Source: Trueperaceae bacterium (GTDB lineage Bacteria; Deinococcota; Deinococci; Deinococcales; Trueperaceae). Taken from it: 64,000 nucleotides of DNA. The stretch lies in the NCBI GenBank assembly GCA_023954415.1, contig JAMLIB010000007.1, positions 1 through 64,000 on the forward strand, given 5' to 3'. Both the position numbers and the translations under genes were made by a program. The notes below the pieces were generated by a model that was given only the letters and a program-made list of their open reading frames with translations, was not told where the DNA came from and searched no databases. This document shows, piece by piece, positions 50,659 through 55,740 of the stretch (position 1 is its first letter; each line of letters starts with the position of its first letter).

Positions 50659-51601
50659 CCCGTTACAGACTGCCATGCCAGACCTCGGGTCCAGCGACGA
50701 CGACGGAGCCGCCCGTGAACTGGCCACCGGCGGGTCACCGCCTGAGCTGGTCTTGCGGGAGTTGACCAGTCACGCCGATCTCCATGAGGTCGAGCGCATC
50801 CAGCGGGAAGTCTGGGGGCTGGACGACTTGGAGGTCGTGCCCAACTCGCAGCTCCGAGCGGCGCTTCACGCCGGGGGGCAACTCGGCGGCGCCTTCCTCG
50901 AAGATGCGCTCGTCGGCTTCTCCTACGGTTTCCTCGCCTCGCCCCACGGCCGCCTGATGGTAGGGCCAGGTCTTCACTCGCACATGGCGGCGGTCAGGCC
51001 GGGCGCGCGCGGTCGTGGGGTCGGTAGAGCGCTCAAGTGGCAGCAGCGTGCCTGGTGCCTGGAGCGGGGCATCGAATGGATGACCTGGACGTTCGATCCG
51101 CTGCAGGCGCGTAACGCGAACTTGAACCTTCGTCACCTCGGAGCGGTCGGCGTCGACTATCTTGTGGACTTCTACGGTCCTATGGGTGGACCCCTTGGCG
51201 GTGGAAGGAGCGATCGCCTCCTCGCGCTCTGGATGCTCACCGGACAGAGAGTGACGGCCCGCGCCGAGGGTGGCGGACCCCTACACGGACCGGCAGTAGG
51301 TGCTCGGTCCGCGCTTCCGGTCCGGGAGCGCCTGGCGACCTGGGCCGTCCGAGCCGCTTCCAGCGATGGCGACGCCGAACCCGTGGTCGAGCTCTCCGAG
51401 GGCCTACTCGCCCGAACCGTAGAGACCGGTGCCAGGGTGATGGTGGCCGCCCCGCCGGAGGCCGGCGGCTTAGCCGCGCCAGAGCGTGCCGGGCGCTGGC
51501 AGGACGCGTTCGTCCGGACCATGATGCCCCTGCTGGCAGCCGGCTACGTAGCCGTCGACTTCGCGGCCGGCGCATACGTCTTCGACCCCATCGATGGCTG
51601 A
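50639..51601 (+). CDS. GNAT-superfamily acetyltransferase-like protein
   Basis: 320 aa. N-terminal part ~40-200 is GNAT-like (COG3375 type): LRELTSHADLHEVERIQREVWGLDDLEVVPNSQLRAALHAGGQLGGAFLEDALVGFSYGFLAS, HSHMAAVRPGARGRGVGRALKWQQRAWCLERGIEWMTWTFDPLQARNANLNLRHLGAVG. RGRGVGRALK is the acetyl-CoA loop. The C-terminal third is less conserved. The substrate is unknown. The start is uncertain: GTG 50639 (overlapping the Fur-family stop by 20 bp) or ATG 50675; neither has a good ribosome site. Probably co-transcribed with the regulator. Confidence 0.8.
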   Translation: MALPKTDPLQTAMPDLGSSDDDGAARELATGGSPPELVLRELTSHADLHEVERIQREVWGLDDLEVVPNSQLRAALHAGGQLGGAFLEDALVGFSYGFLASPHGRLMVGPGLHSHMAAVRPGARGRGVGRALKWQQRAWCLERGIEWMTWTFDPLQARNANLNLRHLGAVGVDYLVDFYGPMGGPLGGGRSDRLLALWMLTGQRVTARAEGGGPLHGPAVGARSALPVRERLATWAVRAASSDGDAEPVVELSEGLLARTVETGARVMVAAPPEAGGLAAPERAGRWQDAFVRTMMPLLAAGYVAVDFAAGAYVFDPIDG

Positions 51602-51618
51602 TGCGAAATGGCATCTAT

Positions 51619-51665
51619 CAATCTATAAAGCTCCACTTGACAATCTGTAAACTAGCGACTATCAT
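51619..51665 (+). promoter_or_regulatory. Strong predicted promoter with 22-bp-spaced direct repeats
   Basis: TTGACA (51637-51642), 17-bp spacer, TATCAT (51660-51665): a near-consensus promoter. CAATCTATAAA (51620-51630) and CAATCTGTAAA (51641-51651) form a direct repeat two helical turns (about 21-22 bp) apart, flanking and overlapping the -35 box. This looks like the binding site of a regulator that I cannot name. The region is strikingly AT-rich compared with its surroundings. Confidence 0.65.
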
Positions 51666-51682
51666 CTTGCCAAGGAGGCGAG

Positions 51683-51955
51683 ATGATGAACGCGTACCTC
51701 GATCAGCGTCACACCCTTGACCGTGTTTCACAACTGCGGAACGAGGCCGCGAACGACCGCCTCGTCCGTGCGGCCAACGCGCCCAGCCCGAGCGCGCGCC
51801 TGCGTGCGCGCTGCGCCAAGTGGCTCCACGCTTCGGCGACCCGGCTGGACGCCGTGAGCCGTCGCTTGGACCCGAAGGGCCAAGGCGGGCGTGCAGCGCT
51901 AACGGACGCCGGCAAGTTCGACGACCTGCGCGAAGTGATGCCCAATCTGCGCTGA
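51683..51955 (+). CDS. Small basic protein of unknown function
   Basis: 90 aa, not recognised. It is predicted to be helical and basic: LDQRHTLDRVSQLRNEAANDRLVRAA, then SARLRARCAKWLHASATRLDAVSRRLDP, ending KFDDLREVMPNLR. One Cys. There is no signal peptide and no clear membrane segment. AAGGAGG lies 5 nt before the ATG and a strong promoter before that, so it is very probably expressed. It might be regulated separately from its neighbours, as the direct repeats in its promoter suggest. The next gene is 320 bp downstream behind a tandem repeat. Confidence 0.7.
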   Translation: MMNAYLDQRHTLDRVSQLRNEAANDRLVRAANAPSPSARLRARCAKWLHASATRLDAVSRRLDPKGQGGRAALTDAGKFDDLREVMPNLR

Positions 51956-52038
51956 GGCGGCGCTCCGTCCGGAGCACTAGGGCCTGGGCTACGTCGAAAG
52001 CGTCGAATCTACCGAGAAGTCTGACGCCGGGCAGGCGG

Positions 52039-52166
52039 GGTGCGAAGTACGGATACTGGGCCGGCGGAGAGGTGCGAGGTGCGGATGCCGTGCCGGCGGC
52101 GGGTTACGAAGCACGGATGCCGGGCCGGCGGAAGGGTACGAAGCACGGATGCCGGACCAGCGGTAA
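52039..52166. repeat. 31-33-bp tandem repeat, four copies
   Basis: Units starting at ~52039, 52071, 52102 and 52135 share GGTACGAAGCACGGATGCCGG-like sequence (for example ACGAAGCACGGATGCCGG in units 3 and 4) and GCCGGCGG ends. A minisatellite in the gene-free stretch 51956-52275, between the small protein gene and the DUF4097 gene; the frames through it do not look like a real protein. Confidence 0.8.
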
Positions 52167-52275
52167 GCGCAAGGCGGTGGACCCTCGGCGGCCCGGAGGA
52201 TGTCAGGACCCTCGATAACGTGCCCGGGCCACCGCAGAACCCCACGAAAGCGAAGCAAGAGAGACAGGAGCACAG

Positions 52276-53379
52276 ATGGACGAGATAGCCCGAGTCGAGC
52301 AGATGGTCGCGGAAGGCCTCATAACCGCGGAGGAGGGCGAGCGCCTCAAGGCGGTGCTGCGCTCCGTCCAAGAGGCCGACGAACTGGAGGCGGCGCACGC
52401 TGCGTCGGAAGGCGGCGAAGGTCTGGACGCACGACTCGTGACCTCGCCTCCGAACGGCGACCAGGCCCCCGCCCTCGTGCCGCCTGCGCCCCTGCCGACG
52501 GTCCCTGTGACGACACCATCGCCGCCCGCTCAGCCGGCGACCCCGCCAACTGCGGCCATGCCGCCCGCATCACGACCAGCGCTGGGCGCCGACGCGCCGA
52601 GGCCGACCGTGCCGGCGGAACCTGGGCGGCCGGGTGCCAACGAAGGTGCACGAGGCGACGGCCGGCAGACGCAGGGCCGCGCGCCGAAGACCGACGACCA
52701 GGCTGCCGAGGCCTCCGCCCCGGCTGGTACGAGATGGGTGCGCGTGGACGTCGTAGCCGGCGACCTCGACGTGCACGTCGACCCGAGCCTCAGCGAGCCG
52801 AAGGTCACGTCGGACTCTGGCGAGGCCACGTTGGAGGCGACCGCCTACGGCTACCGCGTCGCGCTGGGCGGGAAGGGCGAGGGGTTCTTCCTGCGCAACC
52901 TCGAGGGCCCGCTCGCGGGGCTGCTGGCCGGCAGGGGCCGGCCCGGGGACGTGGAGCTCACCCTGCCTGCGGGTTTCGGCATCGACCTGGTCATGACGAC
53001 GGGAGACGTCGACCTCCACGGGGTGCCTTACCTTCGCGGGAGCCTCTCGGCCGGGGACCTAGACGCCTACGGGCTGGAGGGGATCGACCTCTCGAGCCTG
53101 GCCGGCGATGTGTCGGTGAGCCTGCGGGCGAGCAGCGGTCGGCACCGGATCATAAACACCGCGGGGGAGCTCGAGGTCGTGCTCCTGCCCGGCTCGGACG
53201 TCACGGTCAACGGCGACGTCTCGATAGGCGAGGTGAAGGCCGGGCCCGAGTTCACCACTGGCCGCAGGCTGATGAGCGGGACGGTGACCGGCACCCTCGG
53301 CACCGGGGTCGCCAGGCTCGACCTCAAGGTCACGGCCGGCACCATCAAGCTCAAGACCGGAACGGACGACCGTGGCTGA
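52276..53379 (+). CDS. SHOCT-like / DUF4097 adhesin-fold protein
   Basis: 367 aa. The N-terminal ~35 residues are a SHOCT-like helical hairpin (VEQMVAEGLITAEEGERLKAVLRSV). A long Pro/Ala-rich linker (~60-150) leads to a beta-helical DUF4097-type domain (TRWVRVDVVAGDLDVHVDPSLSEPKVTSDSGEATLEATAYGYRVAL, IDLVMTTGDVDLHGVPYLRGSLSAGDLDAYGLEGIDLSSLAGDVSVSLRASSGRHRIINTAGELEVVLLPGSDVTVNGDVSIGEVK). No signal peptide is seen, so it is probably cytoplasmic. Similar proteins occur near envelope-stress regulators (Bacillus YvlB). CAGGAG before the ATG. It overlaps the next gene by 8 bp. Confidence 0.75.
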   Translation: MDEIARVEQMVAEGLITAEEGERLKAVLRSVQEADELEAAHAASEGGEGLDARLVTSPPNGDQAPALVPPAPLPTVPVTTPSPPAQPATPPTAAMPPASRPALGADAPRPTVPAEPGRPGANEGARGDGRQTQGRAPKTDDQAAEASAPAGTRWVRVDVVAGDLDVHVDPSLSEPKVTSDSGEATLEATAYGYRVALGGKGEGFFLRNLEGPLAGLLAGRGRPGDVELTLPAGFGIDLVMTTGDVDLHGVPYLRGSLSAGDLDAYGLEGIDLSSLAGDVSVSLRASSGRHRIINTAGELEVVLLPGSDVTVNGDVSIGEVKAGPEFTTGRRLMSGTVTGTLGTGVARLDLKVTAGTIKLKTGTDDRG

Positions 53380-53800
53380 CTCCGACACCCGCAAGCGCAT
53401 CCTCGACATGCTGGCGGCCGGCCACATCACCGCGGACGCCGCAGCCGAGCTCCTGAAGGCCGTCTCTACCCAGGGGCCGAGGCTGCCCTCCCCGCCGCCC
53501 GTGCCTACGCCCCCACCGGCGCCCCAGCGCGGCGGCGCCCGCATGCTCCGCATCCTCGTCGACGCCCCCCACACCGGCAACGGCGGCAAGGTCCGCGTGA
53601 ACGTGCCGCTCGCCCTCGCCAAGTACGCCATGCGGTTCATCCCGCGTGACACGACGGAGGAGCTGAGCGACCAGGGCATCGACCTGGCGCAGTTGCTGCA
53701 GAACCTCGGTGACGACCTGCCTCAGGGGCGCCTGGTGGACATCGAAGCGGAAGACGACTCCGGCGACGCGAAGATCGCGGTGATCGTCGAGGTCGTGTGA
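53372..53800 (+). CDS. SHOCT-like protein
   Basis: 142 aa. N-terminal SHOCT-like motif (RKRILDMLAAGHITADAAAELLKAV, residues ~5-29), Pro-rich linker (PPPVPTPPPAPQ), then a conserved-looking domain ARMLRILVDAPHTGNGGKVRVNVPLALAKYAMRFIPRD, ending GRLVDIEAEDDSGDAKIAVIVEVV. That layout matches the YvlB-type N-terminal region without the DUF4097 beta-helix. The function is not established. GTG start, overlapping the preceding stop by 8 bp. Part of a three-gene SHOCT module. Confidence 0.7.
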   Translation: MADSDTRKRILDMLAAGHITADAAAELLKAVSTQGPRLPSPPPVPTPPPAPQRGGARMLRILVDAPHTGNGGKVRVNVPLALAKYAMRFIPRDTTEELSDQGIDLAQLLQNLGDDLPQGRLVDIEAEDDSGDAKIAVIVEVV

Positions 53801-53988
53801 GGCTGTGCGCGTACGGCCTCGGACCCCGCCACGGTTGCGGCCTAGCCGGGGACTGGCGCCGCAGCCACCGCCCGCGACCGGAACGACCCTGCGGGCCCCG
53901 CAAGCGGATCGGGCCGCGCACTGACCCCGGCGGGCCGCTGGAGCGGCACCCCGGCCCCAGCCCACTGACCGAACAGGAGTAACAGCGG

Positions 53989-54369
53989 ATGAAGATCCTC
54001 CCCATGCCGACCGCTTGCCCGGTGACGGGCGAGCCCCTCCTCGTGACGCGCCTGGAATGCGACGCCAGCGGCGTCGTCATCGAAGGGCGCTTCACCCCCA
54101 ACGAGTTCGCGCTGCTTCCGGCCGACCACCTCGAGTTCTTGCGCATCTTCGTCAAGGTGCGGGGGAACCTCAAGGAGGTCGAACGGGTGCTGGGCTTGAG
54201 CTACCCGACGGTGCGGCTCCGCTTCGAGAAGCTCCTCTTGGCGCTCGATTACGAGGTCGCCGACGACATCCTCGAGGAGCGCACCGGCATCCTCGACCGG
54301 CTCGAGGCCGGGGACATCGACGCCGAGGAGGCGGCTAGGAGGCTCAACGCCTTGGCGCGCAAGGGCTAG
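53989..54369 (+). CDS. DUF2089-family putative regulator with SHOCT-like tail
   Basis: 126 aa. The DUF2089 pattern is clear: CPVTGEPLLVTRLECDASGVVIEGRFTPNEFALLPADHLEFLRIFVKVRGNLKEVERVLGLSYPTVRLRFEKLLLAL, which includes a helix-turn-helix-like GNLKEVERVLGLSYPTVR segment. The C-terminal 25 residues (ILDRLEAGDIDAEEAARRLNAL) repeat the SHOCT-like motif of the two preceding proteins. CPVTGE keeps only part of the metal-ribbon cysteines usual in the family. ACAGGAG ribosome site. A 188-bp gap separates it from the previous gene, so it may be co-transcribed; it is probably the regulator of the module. Confidence 0.75.
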   Translation: MKILPMPTACPVTGEPLLVTRLECDASGVVIEGRFTPNEFALLPADHLEFLRIFVKVRGNLKEVERVLGLSYPTVRLRFEKLLLALDYEVADDILEERTGILDRLEAGDIDAEEAARRLNALARKG

Positions 54370-54474
54370 GCCGAAGCGGGACCGCGCAGACCCCGCTCGG
54401 ACTCGTTGTTCCGGGCGGGGCGTCGGGTTCACTACTTCGCATCGCGACACTCAAGAAGTCTTAGCGACCTCCGG

Positions 54475-54480
54475 TATACT
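54475..54480 (+). promoter_or_regulatory. -10 element of the dnaJ gene (near-leaderless)
   Basis: TATACT only 9 bp before the dnaJ ATG (54490), predicting a start within a few bases of the start codon. No strong -35 box is visible. The AGTCTTAGCGAC upstream was not identified as a known heat-shock element. Confidence 0.5.
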
Positions 54481-54489
54481 GGCGGCCGC

Positions 54490-55740
54490 ATGACCGACTA
54501 CTACGCCGTCCTGGAAGTCTCGCGGGACGCAGACAGCAAGACCATCAAAGCCTCGTACCGCAGGCTCGCCATGAGCTACCACCCGGATCGCAACCCGGGC
54601 GACAAGGAAGTCGAGGAGAAGTTCAAGGCGATCAACGAGGCGTACGCCGTGCTCTCGGACGAGGCGCGGCGCTCACGCTACGATCGCTACGGCACCGTCG
54701 ACGACAACGCGGTCTTCGGCGGCGACATCTTCGACATCTTCGCTTCCGTGTTCGGCACCAACGTGGCCAACATGTCCGGCGGACGCGGCAGGGCCGGCGG
54801 CCAACCGGGCGAGGACCTGGAGGCGCAGCTCCGCATAACCCTCGAGCAGGCGCGCGAAGGGGCGACCGTCGAGGTCGAGGTGGAGCGGCTCCGCGCCTGC
54901 CACCACTGCCACGGGGAGCGGGCCGAGCCGGGCTCCGCCGGCAAGTCGACCTGCCAGCGTTGCGGCGGAGCCGGTCAGGTCCGCGTGCAGGCGCAGTCGA
55001 TCTTCGGCGCCGTCATCACGGCGCGCACGTGCCCTGACTGCCACGGCGACGGTCACGTCATCCCGACGCCCTGCAAGGTCTGCAACGGTCGCGGCCGCGA
55101 ACGGGGCAAGGACACGGTCGGCGTCACCCTTCCCAAGGGCATCGACGGCGGTTACCGCCTGCGCGTTCCACGCGAAGGGAACGTCGGCGTGGACGGCGGC
55201 CAGTCGGGCGACCTCTACCTGTACATCGAGATGCGGCAACACCCCTTCCTCGAGCGGGCCGGCGACGACCTCCACTACACCCTCGAGGTGGGCATGGCGC
55301 AGGCCGCGCTCGGCGCCACGTTCGACGTGCCGACCCTCGAAGGCCGGGAGCGCCTCACGGTCCCGGCCGGCACCCAGCCGGGCAGCGCGTTCCGGTTGCG
55401 CGGCAAGGGGATGCCGCGCCTCAGGCAGACCGGCAACGGCGACCAGGTCGTCGAGGTCAAGGTAGTCGTCCCCACCAAGCTCACCGCGGAAGCGCGCGAG
55501 CACCTCGCCGCCTATGCCGGAGCGGTCGACGAGACGGTCGAGGAGCAGGAGACGGTCGCAGGCAAGGTGCGCGACTTCTTCGCAGGCAAAGGCAAGGGCA
55601 AGCGGCGGGGGCACGGCAAGGCGCGCGCGGACGACCAGGTCGACGCCTCCGATACTCCCGGCGGTAGAGGCGTCCAAGGCGGACGCGAGGAAGGCCAGGC
55701 GAGCAAGGGCGACGGGCGGGGGTCGCAGGCGAGCGCCTGA
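54490..55740 (+). CDS. dnaJ: DnaJ-type co-chaperone (zinc-finger class)
   Basis: 416 aa. J domain (residues ~1-66) with the HPD motif (YHPDRNPGDKEVEEKFKAINEAYAVLSDEARRSRYDRYG), a short region in place of a long Gly/Phe stretch, a cysteine-rich zinc domain with four CxxCxGxG-like repeats (CHHCHGER, CQRCGGAG, CPDCHGDG, CKVCNGRG), then the C-terminal substrate domain (GKDTVGVTLPKGIDGGYRLRVPREGNVGVDGGQSGDLYL). Stimulates DnaK ATPase. A low-complexity basic/Gly-rich tail of ~50 residues is unusual. No dnaK or grpE is adjacent. The ATG at 54490 is set by the J domain start. Confidence 0.93.
   Translation: MTDYYAVLEVSRDADSKTIKASYRRLAMSYHPDRNPGDKEVEEKFKAINEAYAVLSDEARRSRYDRYGTVDDNAVFGGDIFDIFASVFGTNVANMSGGRGRAGGQPGEDLEAQLRITLEQAREGATVEVEVERLRACHHCHGERAEPGSAGKSTCQRCGGAGQVRVQAQSIFGAVITARTCPDCHGDGHVIPTPCKVCNGRGRERGKDTVGVTLPKGIDGGYRLRVPREGNVGVDGGQSGDLYLYIEMRQHPFLERAGDDLHYTLEVGMAQAALGATFDVPTLEGRERLTVPAGTQPGSAFRLRGKGMPRLRQTGNGDQVVEVKVVVPTKLTAEAREHLAAYAGAVDETVEEQETVAGKVRDFFAGKGKGKRRGHGKARADDQVDASDTPGGRGVQGGREEGQASKGDGRGSQASA

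Follow-up and report, generated by a model that had tools for sequence, protein, structure and literature searches.

Three adjacent genes, all read in the same direction, lie together in a 64,000-nucleotide stretch of contig JAMLIB010000007.1 of a Trueperaceae bacterium (hereafter, the window). Gene 1 (P1) encodes a Toastrack (DUF4097) protein, gene 2 (P2) a small protein, and gene 3 (P3) a DUF2089 protein (Table 1). Profile searches confirm that all three carry the same SHOCT-like_DUF2089-C module (PF22746), which in this genome is exclusive to them. The three proteins probably work together in envelope-stress sensing. In particular, with a probability of roughly 45%, we read the trio as a conserved envelope-stress unit of the Toastrack-DUF2089 type, in which the modules would unite the regulator and its partners in a sub-membrane complex and the partners would gate the DUF2089 protein.

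The initial annotation had described three clearly related helical peptides, and these are present letter for letter at residues 7-28 of gene 1, 10-31 of gene 2, and 101-122 of gene 3. As bare strings, only the second and third stand out, with 12 of 22 positions identical and a BLOSUM62 score of 48, the best unrelated 22-mers among 62,246 from the reading frames of the window scoring 31 and 34. The first motif taken alone is not above chance (7 of 22 positions identical with each of the others, scores 27 and 19). The relatedness of all three is borne out by family profiles. Against PF22746 (cut-off 27 bits), genes 2 and 3 score over the cut-off (31.4 bits, E=1.3e-7, and 28.2 bits, E=1.4e-6, respectively), and gene 1 remains under it (15 bits, E=0.019); gene 1 is assigned to PF22746 because its relatives carry the module and because a two-helix hairpin is predicted. 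The classical SHOCT family PF09851 gives gene 1 only 11.4 bits against a cut-off of 27. Among relatives, PF22746 matches 33 of 37 gene-1 proteins at E<=0.05 and 61 of 61 gene-2 proteins at E<=0.1, the window included, in alignment sets preselected for having a SHOCT-like module. The gene-1 alignment consists of the window protein and 36 of 39 gene-1 proteins (L065, L105, and one of two L109 proteins excluded), and the gene-2 alignment of the window protein and 60 of 63 gene-2 proteins (L077, L089, and L116 excluded as fused, truncated, or odd).

The module was sought with PF22746 throughout the genome of the window (3.2 Mb, 30 contigs, 96% complete). At E<=10, five places were found: the three genes, with the E-values given in Table 1, and two others with E-values of 0.6 and 1.2. 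Only three places remain at E<=0.05, so the motif is not widespread among unrelated proteins encoded there. For comparison, the same family at E<=10 finds matches in all 14 control genomes and exceeds its cut-off in only three.

Conservation was followed in a cross-phylum sample formed by the best-scoring 80 of at least 580 DUF2089 loci, namely 26 from Deinococcota and 54 from Bacillota, Chloroflexota, and a few others. SHOCT profiles seeded with the window proteins detect the tail on 74 of the 80 DUF2089 proteins; the six without a detected tail comprise one truncated by a contig end and five whose diverged tail can be recognized by eye. At 78 of the 80 loci, another open reading frame (ORF) bearing the module lies on the same strand at a distance of at most 3.5 kb. 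The two exceptions are L066, which begins at a contig end, and L073, in which gene 2 is broken within its module. Overall, 114 SHOCT-bearing ORFs other than DUF2089 lie nearby on the same strand, two lie far away on the same strand, and the opposite strand carries none; among 5,358 shuffled ORFs there was no match. When Toastrack and gene-2-type ORFs were sought with profiles that exclude the SHOCT-like module (gene 1 starting at residue 151, gene 2 at residue 51), 49 Toastrack ORFs were found in the 80 loci, 46 of them with the module. The module is likewise present in 63 of 64 gene-2-type ORFs. In 25 of 26 Deinococcota loci, the partners closest to DUF2089 are upstream of it, and in 50 of 54 others they are downstream; no locus shows the reverse order, and the remaining one Deinococcota and four other loci have no partner by those two profiles. 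Since gene content is kept while gene order is inverted, these data are strong evidence for one functional unit. Moreover, the exclusiveness of the module in the genome points to the same conclusion, so that the earlier view of the three genes as a unit is supported.

Within the phylum, DUF2089 is matched at E<=0.001 in 105 of 111 genomes (103 over the cut-off), and PF22746 at E<=0.05 in at least 107 of 111 (at least 98 over the cut-off), compared with 11 of 14 control genomes (only three over the cut-off). Gene 2 occurs in 33 of the 39 genomes of the family, all 33 of which have a DUF2089 match, a count uncorrected for kinship and assembly completeness. Of the six family genomes that lack gene 2, four (G079, G104, G106, and G110) also lack DUF2089. 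Chance similarity of short amphipathic helices, to which the weakness of the gene-1 motif as a string and its Pfam score below the cut-off might point, is extremely improbable: it is refuted by the genome-exclusive places, by the clustering of modules at one site per locus, and by the family profiles, which detect the module in relatives of each of the three proteins.

The domain assignments proposed earlier (SHOCT-like, DUF4097 beta-helix, and DUF2089) are supported by Pfam, by the structure model, and by relatives. The AlphaFold model of gene 1 shows helices at residues 3-12 and 18-45, with a predicted local distance difference test (pLDDT) score of 91-95 over residues 1-30 and lower beyond, a low-confidence stretch at approx. 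41-140 that corresponds to the disordered linker, and beta-strands at 154-361 (pLDDT mostly 86-98, with a drop to 49-56 at 201-220). A Foldseek search with residues 150-362 of this model retrieved 4qrk (E=1.6e-9; VIA Z score 11.8, root mean square deviation (rmsd) 3.9 over 176 residues). The structures that resemble the gene-1 beta-helix carry the title 'putative adhesin' (4qrk), and we take them to be of the DUF4097/DUF2807 type. By sequence, gene 1 scores 20.6 bits against DUF4097/Toastrack (PF13349), under the cut-off of 22.9, and a search of its own genome for DUF4097 at E<=0.01 did not pick it up; its match to the NCBIfam LiaG model (E=4e-8) is also below that model's cut-off. At E<=0.05, PF13349 matches 31 of the 37 aligned gene-1 proteins, including that of the window (best E=1.3e-17). 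The Toastrack assignment, left open by the gene's own score, is thus supported by the beta-helix model and by these relatives.

The bihelical hairpin predicted at the N-terminus of gene 1 is also predicted at that of gene 2 (helices 2-16 and 21-32, pLDDT 81-95), whose first 8 bases are shared with the end of gene 1. In L047 and L048, which belong to other Deinococcota families, gene 2 apparently has two tandem N-terminal SHOCT-like repeats, the second of which is degenerate as judged by eye. In gene 3, the alignment shows that two of the four metal-binding cysteines of the zinc ribbon are kept. The number of cysteines is 0-2 in 17 of 26 Deinococcota loci and four in the other nine, and it is at least four in 54 of 54 other loci; in L048/L049, all four have been lost. 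Metal binding by the ribbon has probably gone in the lineages of the window and of L048/L049, as judged from these residues, although PF22747 matches the window protein strongly. A DUF2089 profile found no relative in the PDB at E<=0.1.

Table 1. Features of the three-gene cluster, in positions of the window
Feature	Positions	Strand	Description and support
Gene 1 (P1), 367 amino acids	52276..53379	+	SHOCT-like module, Pro/Ala-rich disordered linker, and Toastrack/DUF4097 beta-helix
SHOCT-like module of gene 1	52279..52347	+	PF22746 E=0.004 in own genome, below cut-off
Toastrack beta-helix of gene 1, residues 150-361	52723..53358	+	Pfam, AlphaFold model, Foldseek
Gene 2 (P2), 142 amino acids, GTG start	53372..53800	+	N-terminal SHOCT-like module and alpha/beta domain
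SHOCT-like module of gene 2	53384..53470	+	PF22746 E=1.5e-7 in own genome
C-terminal domain of gene 2 (P2C)	53531..53797	+	Predicted beta-beta-alpha-alpha-alpha-beta-beta, AlphaFold confidence only 59-70
Spacer between genes 2 and 3, without fourth gene (P4)	53801..53988	+	P4 present in 21/26 named Deinococcota loci
Gene 3 (P3), DUF2089 protein, 126 amino acids	53989..54369	+	Zinc ribbon, helix-turn-helix, and SHOCT-like tail
Zinc ribbon of gene 3	54016..54111	+	PF22747 E=3.7e-12, 46.6 bits against 27.6
DUF2089 helix-turn-helix of gene 3	54115..54255	+	PF09862 E=1.6e-20, 72.9 bits against 33.4
SHOCT-like tail of gene 3	54274..54363	+	PF22746 E=1.8e-6 in own genome

In the proposed unit, the scaffold would be the soluble Toastrack domain of gene 1, borne on its flexible linker; the small alpha/beta protein of gene 2 would act as a partner, and the DUF2089 protein of gene 3 would be the regulator that binds DNA. 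Assembly through the SHOCT-like module, as the initial annotation had suggested, is plausible: the docking modules would gather the regulator and its partners in a single sub-membrane complex, either by binding one another, preferably regulator with partner, or by binding a common site. The products of genes 1 and 2 would hold or gate the DUF2089 protein, together with a small membrane protein where the fourth gene, P4, is kept, and envelope stress would alter the complex and, in turn, transcription. Here we infer the physical binding, the membrane location, the direction of control, the stress signal, and the target genes.

The turn between the two helices of the module differs between classes. 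In one profile of the named loci, the consensus is approx. ILxMLxEGKITxEEAxxLLxAL for genes 1 and 2 and approx. ILxALxRGEIxAEEAxxxL for the regulator; that is, the turn is mostly E-G-K in genes 1 and 2 and R/K-G-E in gene 3. The residue before the turn glycine is acidic in 29 of 42 gene-1, 36 of 63 gene-2, and 2 of 74 gene-3 modules, and basic in 1, 0, and 58 of them, respectively. The residue after the glycine is basic in 32 of 42, 47 of 63, and 4 of 74, and acidic in 1, 5, and 66. When distinct modules are split by phylum, genes 1 and 3 show the pattern in both groups. The turns of the window proteins follow this pattern only weakly, reading E-G-L, A-G-H, and A-G-D in genes 1, 2, and 3, respectively. 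If the modules pair in register, self-pairing would oppose like charges, and pairing of regulator with partner would match opposite ones. The modules might accordingly form a charge-coded heterotypic docking pair, in which the partner E-G-K would pair with the regulator R/K-G-E and not with itself; this more specific proposal is rather doubtful. If it were true, a soluble complex of Toastrack and gene-2 proteins could sequester the DNA-binding protein, and a single operon would then form an envelope-stress switch that has neither a kinase nor PspA. A pure effect of C-terminal position was also considered for the pattern, which is not explained by position alone in the small sample of seven Toastrack proteins with a C-terminal module: in three (L095, L116, and L135) the turn glycine is followed by a basic residue and preceded by an acidic or neutral one, L133 has R-G-E, and three (L109, L110, and L114) show neither arrangement. 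In L133, a Chloroflexi metagenome-assembled genome, both sides are reversed (Toastrack R-G-E and DUF2089 E-G-R), a single possible compensatory swap.

Several observations weigh against the proposed unit. The 80 loci were picked by the similarity of their DUF2089 sequences to those of Deinococcota, so the system is over-represented among them. Genomes G108 and G109 have DUF2089 and no gene-2 match. The turn pattern is mostly missing from Deinococcota gene-2 modules (among 54 distinct modules, column 8 is acidic in 11, whereas column 10 has a basic residue in 23 and an acidic one in 15), and one ancestral charge difference, kept for whatever reason, would give an identical pattern. As a residue contact, the charge swap was rejected for want of covariation within loci: Fisher p is 1.0 at column 8 with both gene 1 and gene 2, and 1.0 and 0.17, respectively, at column 10. 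Regulator and partner modules are no more alike within a genome than between genomes (0.357 vs 0.376 for P1-P3; 0.428 vs 0.424 for P2-P3). Concerted evolution within a genome, sought in 28 loci with three modules, was likewise set aside; P1-P2 alone is slightly raised (0.505 vs 0.479), a value reached by 54 of 2000 permutations, uncorrected for relatedness. Finally, three genomes of the Thermus group without working partners retain a recognizable DUF2089 tail. In Thermus parvatiensis (G061, locus L073/L140), the locus yielded no gene 1, and a frameshift interrupts the module of gene 2; in G062 (L139), of the same genus, neither gene 1 nor gene 2 was found at the locus, and a remnant resembling the end of P4 lies just before DUF2089; in G071 (L137), again of this genus, the DUF2089 frame lacks the zinc ribbon and no partner module is seen, the tail being recognized by eye, with no match in the Pfam search. 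The tail therefore does not vanish at once upon partner loss, and its persistence reflects either its own use or recent losses; this Thermus group, in which the cluster is eroding, offers a natural experiment on the requirements of the tail. These Thermus genomes, the missing covariation, and the missing likeness of regulator and partner modules of one genome favor the view that each module is a homodimerization or folding tail of its own protein (in DUF2089, for dimerization in DNA binding) and that the three are alike by descent from one mobile module. This view is nevertheless unlikely, as it leaves unexplained the clustering of modules in one neighborhood across inverted gene orders, and in-register self-pairing would put like charges opposite each other at turn columns 8 and 10.

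To the same side of the balance belong findings on the membrane and on the stress system. At the locus L056, a near-identical trio has no hydrophobic segment in its three genes and no P4. The genome of the window yields no match to PspA/IM30 (PF04012) at E<=0.01 (at 96% completeness; 9 of 14 control genomes matched), and its PspC, one small gene (L136, contig C5), is on a contig other than that of the cluster; in the searches of this genome for PspA, PspC, and DUF4097, it is the sole clear match outside the cluster. If the trio belongs to a system like the phage shock protein (PSP) system, it is consequently a stripped one. Moreover, one classical SHOCT domain showed no oligomerization in the part of the study by Eberhardt et al. 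(2013; PMC3581485) drawn on here. That result favors another account, in which the modules are independent anchors to the inner leaflet or to one membrane protein, and the three proteins never bind one another through them. Anchoring by SHOCT-like domains is what Ravi et al. (2024; PMC11237479) proposed; it also accords with the presence of the module on otherwise unrelated domains and with the genes for hydrophobic segments (P4, PspC, and a protein with four transmembrane (4-TM) segments) in many of the same clusters. L056 and the missing P4 of the window tell against anchoring as well, and turn charges that differ between partners and regulator would not be expected if all shared one anchor site. 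We consider anchoring somewhat unlikely.

The C-terminal domain of gene 2, P2C, has no coherent Pfam family among 61 gene-2 proteins; the weak matches are ComZ in 9, HPr in 4 (PTS-HPr, PF00381; best E 0.0071), and others in fewer or similar numbers. The NCBI LiaX model gives weak matches in 11 of the 61 (best E=3.1e-5). Foldseek found no match to its low-confidence model at E<=0.001, and the best match of a further fold comparison, the SPAK C-terminal domain (Z 5.3, rmsd 3.6 over 82 residues), was rejected as being within the stated noise of the tool. A sequence search of the PDB with gene 2 returned two designed proteins (E 0.001 and 0.014, with no single significant stretch) and one chain at E 0.11.

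P4, the fourth gene of related loci, encodes in Deinococcota a protein of approx. 85-145 amino acids with a hydrophobic stretch, and it usually lies between genes 2 and 3, as in L057, L058, L059, L060, L062, L064, and L065; a further example is L092:4588-4875. Its profile was built from its own members, so that the counts hold partly by construction; it gives a match in 21 of the 26 named Deinococcota loci and in 19 of the 54 others, and in none of 12,553 shuffled frames. No P4 is found between genes 2 and 3 in the window, L037, L038, or L056, where the space is just 68-194 bases. Pfam offers no convincing family for P4, only single weak matches in 2 of 30 members (E about 0.04). The first profile comparisons of P4 with P2C were weak (E 0.026 and 0.016). 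Later values are E 0.001 over 76 columns (score 22.3) with Bacillota members alone and E 0.0006 over 49 columns (score 23.4) with all members; 40 column shuffles of the Bacillota-seeded profile scored 13.2 at most, and the hhalign probability is only 21 and 30%. From these profiles, P4 is a likely candidate for a hydrophobic relative of P2C. If the charge-coded pairing were also true, gene 2 would carry the soluble form, and P4 the membrane form, of a single unnamed domain.

In the surrounding DNA, no sigma-70-like promoter or terminator-like site was seen within 51950-54560, and no Rfam match over the gathering score within 51500-55000. Approximately four imperfect 32-bp GC-rich tandem units precede gene 1 (52034-52163), and no other site of the genome matches at E<=0.001. 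As regulator sites, these repeats were rejected: none lies upstream of gene 1 in L038, and L056 has a different 15-bp array there. A 90-amino-acid ORF upstream of the cluster (51683-51955) bears a weak likeness to the exonuclease VII small subunit (E 0.004, far below the cut-off).

Three recognizable modules in three adjacent genes, one of which encodes a DNA-binding protein, offer a clean test bed for SHOCT-like function, and the class-specific charge mirror points to concrete mutants. If pairing is real, it would explain how signals from Toastrack proteins reach transcription in bacteria that lack PspA and have no kinase in the cluster.

Among known systems, the window trio can be compared with the yvlABCD and liaXYZ operons, with the PSP system, and with the Toastrack contexts of Ravi et al. 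The accounts of yvlABCD and liaXYZ, as far as they were available to us, describe YvlB/LiaX, PspC, and YvlD; besides PspC, these operons encode a membrane protein of the holin-like type, and they are linked to sigma-W or LiaFSR. In contrast, the window cluster has a DUF2089 regulator and no membrane gene. Some Bacillota clusters (L092, L101, and L113) continue with a 4-TM Phage_holin_4_2/YvlD-like gene and, in L092, also with PspC (Pfam), which ties the clusters to operons of the yvl/liaXYZ type. For YvlB of B. subtilis, two-hybrid assays gave interactions with PspA, LiaH, and Yvl proteins (PMC9239133), and C-terminal truncations of LiaX have been interpreted as the loss of an inhibitor of LiaFSR (PMC10269926). 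A 2026 Listeria paper takes a yvl-like operon as a PSP variant. The classical PSP system has PspA/IM30, whereas the genome of the window gave no match to it. The classical SHOCT domain (PF09851) is likewise a short two-helix module at the ends of proteins, on unrelated domains; the window modules match the SHOCT-like PF22746 and not the original family. For SHOCT and SHOCT-like domains, the proposed functions are oligomerization, anchoring, and nucleic-acid binding (PMC11237479, PMC3581485).

The closest known arrangement is that of Ravi et al. (PMC11237479), the only work found to treat DUF2089 and Toastrack together in a literature search (DUF2089, Toastrack, SHOCT-like, YvlB, and LiaX) limited to the accessible portions of the sources. 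There, Toastrack-DUF2089 neighborhoods are described with a SHOCT-like domain N-terminal to Toastrack, DUF2089 is split into a zinc ribbon, a helix-turn-helix, and a SHOCT-like tail, and membrane signals are proposed to be relayed to transcription, with the SHOCT-like domains as membrane anchors. As in those contexts, Toastrack and DUF2089 genes adjoin in the window. Unlike the contexts in the accessible part of that paper, the window trio has no LiaI-LiaF-TM, B-box, or PspC gene, so the membrane component is missing from it, and two of the four ribbon cysteines have been lost. Control of DUF2089 by genes 1 and 2, as the initial annotation had it, would fit both these Toastrack contexts and the biology of LiaX. 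In the accessible literature on DUF2089 and Toastrack, the supplement of Ravi et al. aside, no account of P2C, P4, or the turn charges was found. The Toastrack-DUF2089 association is already known in outline from that work (PMC11237479); the additions to this picture are the gene-2 domain, P4, which is absent from the window, and the class-specific charges of the turn.

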